From Oscillospiraceae bacterium (GTDB taxonomy: Bacteria > Bacillota > Clostridia > UMGS1810): a DNA stretch of 37,483 nucleotides. Shown piece after piece: positions 34,778 to 37,483 of the stretch. How positions within the stretch are numbered: position 1 is the stretch's first letter; each line of letters begins with the position of its first letter. Both the position numbers and the translations under genes were made by a program. The stretch covers positions 1-37,483 of the forward strand of contig SVJH01000020.1 in assembly GCA_015069095.1 (NCBI GenBank), read 5' to 3'. The notes beneath the pieces were generated by a model. It made no database searches, had not been told where the DNA came from, and saw only the letters and a list, made by a program, of their open reading frames with translations.

Positions 34778-35845
34778 ATGGACTATATGACTGCAAGAGA
34801 AGCAGCTGATAAATGGGGCATATCCCAAAGACGAGTTGCTGTGCTGTGTTCTGAGAATAGAATAGAAAATGCCGCGCGGTTGGGAAATATGTGGATTATC
34901 CCTAATAACGCCGAAAAGCCAATCGACGCAAGAAGCACTCGATACAACATGAGTACCGATAAATGCGTTAAGCCATTTCTAAAATGGGCAGGCGGAAAAG
35001 GTCAGTTGATTAGGGAAATTGAAAAATATTATCCATTCGGATCAACAATAACTAAGTATGCCGAACCCTTCGTAGGCGGAGGTGCTGTTCTCTTCGATAT
35101 ATTAAACAAGCACAAAGTTAATGAAATATATATTAGCGATACAAATGCCGAACTAATAAATGCATATAAAATAGTAAGAGATAGGATTGATGAACTAATC
35201 GAGTTACTTCAAGCATATCAGGCAGAGTATATACCCCTTACTACTGAGGAAAGAAAAGAATACTATATTAGAAAAAGAGAATCATTCAACGAACTAAAGG
35301 TAAATGGGAATGAGAAAACAAACATTGAAAAAGCAGCACTGATGATATTCCTTAATAAGACATGCTTTAATGGATTGTATCGAGTGAATAAAAAGGGATT
35401 ATTCAATGTCCCAATGGGTTCTTATAAAAATCCTATGATATGTGATGAGGATAACCTAAGAAGGGTATCTTGTAAACTTCAAAATGTAACAATAGTGTGT
35501 GGAGATTACAGAGAGTCAAGAGACTTCATTGATGAGAATACATTCGTGTACTTCGATCCGCCATATAGACCGATAACGGATACAGCAAGCTTTACTGCCT
35601 ACACCGAGAACTTGTTTAACGATGAAGAGCAAATAGAACTTGCAAGATTTGTAGATGAAATGCATAAAAAAGGAGCTAAGATAGTCGTAAGTAATTCTGA
35701 TCCTAAAAATTCAAATACAGAAGATGACTTCTTCGATAATATCTATAAAGCACATAAAATCAAAAGGGTTGAAGCTACGAGGATGATAAATTGCAATAGC
35801 GAAGCTCGTGGCAAGATTAGAGAATTGCTAATATCAAACTACTAA
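34778..35845 (+). CDS. Dam-family DNA adenine methyltransferase with fused N-terminal HTH domain
   Basis: Type II N6-adenine methyltransferase, probably GATC-specific. Residues 1-55 form a helix-turn-helix of the MerR/excisionase sort (MTAREAADKWGISQRRVAVL, ARLGNMWIIP). The methyltransferase begins around residue 62: FLKWAGGKGQLI, SAM motif AEPFVGGGAVLFDI, the Dam-like target-recognition stretch RVNKKGLFNVPMGSYKNP, and the catalytic DPPY at about residues 260-263. The 355-residue total equals a Dam protein plus about 65 residues. An AAGGAG precedes the ATG. The HTH may let the enzyme repress its own promoter; that is inference. The next gene is the matching nuclease. Confidence 0.93.
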   Translation: MDYMTAREAADKWGISQRRVAVLCSENRIENAARLGNMWIIPNNAEKPIDARSTRYNMSTDKCVKPFLKWAGGKGQLIREIEKYYPFGSTITKYAEPFVGGGAVLFDILNKHKVNEIYISDTNAELINAYKIVRDRIDELIELLQAYQAEYIPLTTEERKEYYIRKRESFNELKVNGNEKTNIEKAALMIFLNKTCFNGLYRVNKKGLFNVPMGSYKNPMICDEDNLRRVSCKLQNVTIVCGDYRESRDFIDENTFVYFDPPYRPITDTASFTAYTENLFNDEEQIELARFVDEMHKKGAKIVVSNSDPKNSNTEDDFFDNIYKAHKIKRVEATRMINCNSEARGKIRELLISNY

Positions 35846-35915: not shown

Positions 35916-36560
35916 ATGAAATTAAGAGATGCACAAGATAAAATATTAAGAATATGTAATATACCATTCTCGGAATTATTTACTGAGGCGGATTTTGAAA
36001 CTATAATTAAAAACAAGGGTAAAACAGGACAGTTGCTTGAATTAGCTCTTGGCAAGAAATTGGACAGCTTCAATATAGACTTTGAAGACGGAGAGTTAAA
36101 AAGCAATAAATGTGATAGAAACGGAAAGCCATTGGAGACAGTTTTCATTACACAAATAGCAAGCGTAATTGATGAGCTTCTTGAAGAAAGACCATTTCAA
36201 GAAACGCATCTTTATGAGAAAATCTCAAATATGCTCTATGTTCCTGTTTGCAAGGAAGGAAATCCAAGAGATTGGATGTTTTTAGATGCAATACATATTG
36301 ATTTGTCAAAACCGGAATATTCGGAATTTTTGGATATTTGGGAAGAGGATTATTATTCTATTTGCAGACAATTAAAAGAACACATTGAAACAAGTTCGGA
36401 TGGATATATTCATACATCAAATGGAACGCATATTCAAGTGAGAAGTAAGGATTCAAAACCATATCATCCGATATACTCACATAAATACGGTAGATATGTA
36501 TCCAATAAAAATCACGCTTTTTATTTTCAAAAGCAATTTGTTTACGATGTAAGGAAATGA
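35916..36560 (+). CDS. MutH/Sau3AI-family type II restriction endonuclease, probably cutting GATC
   Basis: Cognate nuclease of the preceding methyltransferase. The MutH-type core is visible: KGKTGQLLELALG (catalytic Glu in GQLLE at residue 42), a downstream Asp at 55 or 58 and the ExK pair E60-L-K62, then NGKPLETVFITQI, which corresponds to the ET-rich strand of Sau3AI and MutH. At 214 residues it has one catalytic domain, like MutH and unlike the two-domain Sau3AI, so it would need to act as a dimer. The Asp-to-ExK spacing is shorter than in E. coli MutH. GGAGG precedes the ATG. GATC specificity is inferred from the family and the Dam-like partner. Confidence 0.85.
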   Translation: MKLRDAQDKILRICNIPFSELFTEADFETIIKNKGKTGQLLELALGKKLDSFNIDFEDGELKSNKCDRNGKPLETVFITQIASVIDELLEERPFQETHLYEKISNMLYVPVCKEGNPRDWMFLDAIHIDLSKPEYSEFLDIWEEDYYSICRQLKEHIETSSDGYIHTSNGTHIQVRSKDSKPYHPIYSHKYGRYVSNKNHAFYFQKQFVYDVRK

Positions 36561-36577: not shown

Positions 36578-37483
36578 ATGAGCACTTGTCACTTCTGTAA
36601 AAACGAAATAACCGAATCAAAATTTATGTTATTGAACGATATGATATATAAATCATGTCCTGGTTGTTCAAAGAGCGCAGGGATGCACGTGTTTTATAGT
36701 TGCCCGGAGCTGTTCGGGTGTGCTCCTACTCGTGCTAATAAAAGCAACCCCCTTGGATTACAAAGTCATTGTGCACCTTGTCGTTCAGAGAAACAAGGGC
36801 CTCACGAAAATGCCGTACTGTGTTCGCAGGCCAAAGAACTCAGCGGTTATGTAATAAACGAAGTACGTATTTTGCCTATGAGTACAGATGTGTTTGGCAC
36901 CTATCTGGAGGCCCGCGCGTTCTTGTTGAGTACAATGCCGAGCAGAGGTAATACATATTATTTCAAAACGTCAAAAATGAACTGCCCTGAAAACACACTG
37001 GTATTTTTTCAGTGTGGTGGTTGCTTGATAGGTTATGCAATACACTTAAAAACGGTATTACTCGAAAACCCAGTTACGCTTGAAGACGGAGAAATCTATA
37101 ACGGATACTACCAATTTGCTGAAAATTCGGTGACACTATTTGAAAAACTTATAGGAAAAGAAAAAATGGTGGAGATATACCCTGAATTTAAGACATTCAA
37201 TCAAAGTCATCAATTTCTTCCGGTAGCAGTCTTGCCTGCAATTTTTAGCGAATTAAACGCAAAAAGCGGGTTTGTTAAATCCTATATGCAAAACAACTTA
37301 CCAGAAGAAATTGCTGATGAGGATATACAGAAACTTAAAGAAGGTACAAAAAAGACTATTACAGTTAATGCGTATGAACGAAACGATAAGGCGCGCAGGC
37401 AATGTATCAATTATTATAAGAAGAAAAATGGCGGCGTTGTAAAATGTGAAATATGTGGATTTAATTTTGGAAAGACGTATGGA
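36578..37483 (+). CDS. Zinc-finger protein with a C-terminal HNH nuclease domain, candidate modification-dependent endonuclease (3' truncated)
   Basis: The frame opens with an ATG at 36578, has GAGG nine bases upstream and stays open for 302 codons to the window edge. Residues 1-82 carry paired cysteines (C4/C7, C27/C30, C42/C48, C65/C68) that suggest two zinc sites. Residues 90-185 hold VINEVRILPMS, RGNTYYFKTSKMNCP and NTLVFFQCGGCLIGYAI, a pattern like PUA/EVE-type folds that in other nucleases read modified bases. Residues 264-302 (VNAYERNDKARRQCINYY, VKCEICGFNFGKTYG) are the start of an HNH domain; the His-Asn-His part lies beyond the edge. GC-richer codons near 36660-36920 differ from the core genes. 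Third gene of the defence cluster. The middle domain is the least certain assignment. Confidence 0.8.
   Translation, partial: MSTCHFCKNEITESKFMLLNDMIYKSCPGCSKSAGMHVFYSCPELFGCAPTRANKSNPLGLQSHCAPCRSEKQGPHENAVLCSQAKELSGYVINEVRILPMSTDVFGTYLEARAFLLSTMPSRGNTYYFKTSKMNCPENTLVFFQCGGCLIGYAIHLKTVLLENPVTLEDGEIYNGYYQFAENSVTLFEKLIGKEKMVEIYPEFKTFNQSHQFLPVAVLPAIFSELNAKSGFVKSYMQNNLPEEIADEDIQKLKEGTKKTITVNAYERNDKARRQCINYYKKKNGGVVKCEICGFNFGKTYG

Follow-up and report, generated by a model that had tools for sequence, protein, structure and literature searches.

The YTH domains that read N6-methyladenine (m6A) do so with an aromatic cage built with tryptophan residues, and the archaeal McrB of Thermococcus reads m6A via a YTH-like domain. 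HNH enzymes, in turn, may be type II restriction enzymes. Fusions of a PUA-type reader to an HNH nuclease are already known (PMC7897488, PMC7641849). The closest to the gene described here are VcaM4I and other EVE-HNH modification-dependent endonucleases, which share with it a PUA-superfamily domain, a linker, and a C-terminal HNH domain; the base pocket of VcaM4I comprises P24, W82, and Y130 (PMC7897488).

The stretch of DNA analysed here (the window) is an entire contig of 37,483 bases from a genome of 2.06 Mb (46 contigs, 97.9% complete). Compared with VcaM4I, its gene of similar layout has an added N-terminal double zinc module, gives no Pfam EVE match, has no tryptophan for W82, and sits in a Dam/MutH-like operon, as does that of its full-length relative (L002, below). 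The GATC system that the first-pass annotation had placed beside the gene was confirmed on the same strand, with the MutH-like member falling below the equivalog cut-off. The features are as follows:

34778-35845, + strand: Dam-type adenine methyltransferase (D12 class), 355 aa (TIGR00571, 2.6e-88, above cut-off)
35916-36560, + strand: MutH-like (presumed GATC) nuclease, 214 aa (PRK05070, 1e-12, below equivalog cut-off)
36578-37483, + strand: predicted zinc-module/PUA-like/HNH nuclease gene, 3' end missing (302 of ~362 residues)
36578-36832, + strand: N-terminal double zinc module, phrog_7682-like
36857-37261, + strand: predicted domain of the PUA superfamily (YTH/EVE/ASCH-like) that presumably reads a modified base
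37289-37444, + strand: linker with a conserved TVNAYER motif in the alignments, ahead of the HNH domain
37445-37483, + strand: start of the HNH domain (from the sequence and the L002 alignment), with the first zinc knuckle CEIC, after which the contig ends

The frame that opens with the ATG at 36578 is free of stop codons through the final base of the window (302 codons). When these bases were shuffled 2000 times, stop-free runs reached 154 codons at most (mean 62), and the alignment to a homologue spans the full 302 residues; the frame running off the edge is thus a genuine gene. Since the window spans the whole contig, it is the assembly that truncates the gene at the contig end. The truncated protein matched no Pfam or PADLOC family, and its PDB sequence matches to Sm-like and odorant-binding proteins were rejected as being at chance level. 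No relative of the window protein or of the L002 protein was found in viral contigs, nor was any relative found in the phages searched. A weak match in genome G461 contains an internal stop and was left out of the counts, and the mixed alignment (A1) held no stretch sufficiently conserved for a pattern search.

Among species-representative genomes a homologue was located at one locus (L002), in a goat-rumen Ruminococcus MAG. This protein of 362 residues is 55-56% identical to the window protein across all 302 residues and continues for 61 residues more. The relative supplies a C terminus with the HNH domain, while the window's own 3' end lies beyond the contig; a search of the same genome for the missing C terminus found none on other contigs, the L002 protein matching the window contig only. 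In L002, a Dam-type methyltransferase, a MutH-like nuclease, the HNH gene, and a second methyltransferase (MT2) follow one another on one strand, with 3 bases between the MutH-like and HNH genes and with the ATG start of MT2 overlapping the stop codon of the HNH gene. Pairwise identity between the window and L002 is 55% for Dam and 78% for the MutH-like nuclease. The Dam-type methyltransferases at both loci (window 34778-35845; L002:4138-5262) give a weak N-terminal HTH match, possibly pointing to self-regulation. The L002 operon is preceded by two large serine recombinases and the window operon by an IS3-type transposase.

All eight MutH-like loci found (the window, L002, and L044-L049) have a Dam relative nearby, and two of them have the HNH gene. 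The association of the HNH gene with Dam/MutH is real yet rare, and the order is kept in one other genome. In four viral-collection contigs (L044-L047), a single cluster combines MutH-like and DpnII-like nucleases with Dam and an additional methyltransferase. GATC was seen 28 times in the window against 97 expected from trinucleotides, a scarcity consistent with a lineage that has faced cutting at GATC. CTAG is scarcer still (3 seen, 40 expected).

The HNH end, as first proposed, stands for the relatives; the window itself carries only the first zinc knuckle of the domain (CEICGFNFGKTYG), and the catalytic residues lie past the contig edge. PF01844 (HNH) matches the C terminus of L002 (E = 8e-5, residues 289-344) and of a second relative, L011 (E = 1e-7), and an HNH domain with its catalytic histidine is present in both. 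In L002 the motifs are C289xxC292, HIHH (309-312), and CPNCH (335-339). The sole PADLOC match of the L002 protein was to a type IV mREase model (2.5e-4, residues 284-348) and its sole PDB sequence match was to EcoKMcrA (6ghc, 0.004); the likeness to both is limited to the shared C-terminal HNH domain.

The middle of the protein (about residues 93-228) is predicted, at modest model confidence, to adopt a PUA-superfamily fold. An AlphaFold2 model of the L002 protein, made with two sequences, had a pLDDT of about 46-70 (54-70 for the most part) across residues 91-200; outside the middle it was poor (<50 at residues 1-91 and through most of the HNH region). Searched against the PDB with Foldseek, this model gave 21 matches at E <= 0.001, every one a YTH domain or VcaM4I, with YTH domains the best. 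VIA-align of residues ~92-226 gave Z scores of 10.4 for ASCH, 9.3 for YTH, 8.4 for EVE (2eve), and 8.2 for VcaM4I. A model of the window segment (pLDDT 53.6) gave weak matches (best E 0.018 in Foldseek, best Z 5.7 in VIA), again with PUA-superfamily proteins at the top. The Pfam profiles for EVE, YTH, and ASCH gave no match at E <= 1 to the window and L002 proteins, nor did EVE to the L011 protein, and for this reason we call the middle PUA-like by fold and not a member of the EVE family. The earlier claim of a PUA/EVE-like middle is thus borne out by the predicted fold, weakly so for the window segment, but not by any profile; the presence of VcaM4I among the best fold matches agrees with the likeness suggested to nucleases that cut modified phage DNA. 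Four relatives contain no tryptophan at all, leaving W82 of VcaM4I without a tryptophan counterpart; GYY[QI]F and KM[NT], both conserved, are candidate pocket motifs.

Relatives sharing the middle and HNH parts also occur with neither Dam nor MutH nearby (L011 and A. faecis L004). The former lies near SIR2 and Schlafen-helicase genes, and the A. faecis relative adjoins two GmrSD_N genes. At L037:8137-10055, two distinct HNH genes lie side by side, likely within a defence island where SIR2, Schlafen-helicase, and phage-type integrase genes are also found.

We consider it probable that the gene encodes a modification-dependent (type IV) nuclease of PUA-HNH layout to which a zinc module has been added, acting as an accessory of the GATC restriction system and perhaps directed at modified cytosine, its most likely target. 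Several lines of evidence lead to this reading: the fold matches to YTH, VcaM4I, ASCH, and EVE, the HNH domain in L002 and L011, the type IV mREase and EcoKMcrA matches, the shared operon order, the relatives among defence genes, the lack of detectable C5 methyltransferases in the host, and the absence of tryptophan. Its directly supported elements are the gene, the domain order, the operon order in one other genome, the predicted fold, and the HNH motif in relatives. The PUA-superfamily domain would flip out and hold the modified base, the HNH domain, ending beyond the contig, would cut near it, and the zinc module may help to contact DNA or select the target. DNA without Dam methylation would fall to the MutH-like enzyme, and DNA carrying a modification that blocks the latter would fall to the HNH enzyme. 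Such a two-layer defence with the Dam-type system, as first proposed, is plausible, and the gene order recurs in one further genome; most MutH-like/Dam loci, however, are without the HNH gene, and relatives of its middle and HNH parts also occur elsewhere.

The N-terminal module matches phrog_7682 over residues 1 to ~85 (window 2.3e-7, L002 2.2e-9), a family of small proteins for which we know of no function; here the module is fused to a nuclease. In six relatives 19 residues are invariant, including C4, C7, C27, C30, H37, C65, C68, and C82 (L002 numbering), in agreement with the Cys-rich zinc region that had been described. Judging by these residues, seven cysteines and one histidine would be enough for two zinc sites. 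L011 has no zinc module, which makes the module separable from the rest of the protein. An alignment of the module searched against 388 genomes of the phylum found only the window's own copy. Stand-alone copies (81-93 residues) were found at the following loci, four of the five near DNA methyltransferase genes:

L031:3788-4063, L032:4995-5276 and L033:4995-5276, a Klebsiella plasmid and two Salinivibrio records: stand-alone zinc modules immediately ahead of a methyltransferase gene
L034:4983-5228, Aeromonas: stand-alone zinc module with no such neighbour within 5 kb
L035:3693-3953: stand-alone zinc module that follows a Dam-type methyltransferase and a DUF6997 protein

The plasmid records have no annotated gene under the zinc-module matches. 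A tentative extension of our reading, which we hold to be rather doubtful, is that the module is an undescribed part of restriction-modification systems, mobile between methyltransferase operons either alone or as the front end of a nuclease, and that here it steers a modification-dependent nuclease so that the GATC operon holds both attack layers as one unit.

It is unlikely that the gene encodes a conventional type II restriction enzyme, with its partner MT2 just past the contig end as in L002 and with the PUA-like domain as a sequence reader. In favour of this alternative, the MT2 of L002, a PF01555 methyltransferase, gives a 1e-153 match to a type II MTase family of PADLOC, and its gene begins on the stop codon of the HNH gene. 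Copies of MT2 without the HNH gene, however, were found in GATC-type operons with DpnII-like or MutH-like nucleases, at 55-77% identity to the L002 copy:

L003:5995-6729: Fusobacterium Dam-DpnII-Mrr-MT2 operon, 77%
L039:5995-6732: Dam-DpnII-MT2 operon, 76-77%
L040:2401-3141: Dam-DpnII-MT2 operon, 76-77%
L048:5163-5912: GATC-type operon

MT2 is therefore not a dedicated partner of the HNH gene and belongs to the GATC system. In the window genome no MT2 homologue was found, assembly gaps aside, as one of these could contain it. On both grounds MT2 was rejected as the cognate methyltransferase. In the Fusobacterium operon an Mrr-type nuclease (L003:5169-5987) fills the slot before MT2, which the HNH gene holds in L002; from these few cases, the slot seems to take differing accessory nucleases.

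Similarly improbable is a YTH-like reader of m6A, cutting m6A outside GATC contexts or silenced by regulation. YTH domains lead the Foldseek matches, m6A-dependent HNH fusions are known (PMC11037411), and methylation is documented to silence a conflicting HNH enzyme (PMC8989522). Conflict can be solved in this way, as for PcaRCII (PMC8989522), or through context, a solution considered for winged-helix fusions (PMC11037411). Yet the protein holds no tryptophan and hence no YTH-type cage, and it differs from the YTH readers, Thermococcus gammatolerans McrB among them, further in its HNH fusion and in having no AAA motor. The host, moreover, has adenine-type methyltransferases, namely Dam and two that PF01555 matches above cut-off, whereas no C5 methyltransferase (PF00145) match was found in the window genome or in genome G255. 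The L002 genome has one PF00145 match, below cut-off, and 10 of 14 control genomes have matches. With no detectable C5 methyltransferase, several adenine-type ones, and no m6A-reader cage, cytosine reading is favoured: a reader of modified cytosine would be safe in this host and a broad m6A reader would not. This argument from the host covers three genomes, with no base rate for the group, and is suggestive only, as silencing or context can also settle such a conflict; the genome is consistent with the constraint, raised at the outset, that host methyladenine must not be attacked. Least likely of all is that the protein serves the GATC system in an accessory or regulatory role (a methylation-state sensor or repair, for example) rather than as a stand-alone restriction enzyme, for although the L002 gene is tightly set between the MutH-like gene and MT2 and the zinc module recurs beside methyltransferases, L011 and the A. 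faecis relative have no Dam or MutH nearby.

If the modification-dependent nuclease that we favour is the right reading, a single operon would cut unmodified GATC DNA as well as DNA modified against that cut, and both cutting layers would spare the methyladenine of the host itself. In that case phrog_7682, a zinc family found beside methyltransferase genes, would also gain a possible role.
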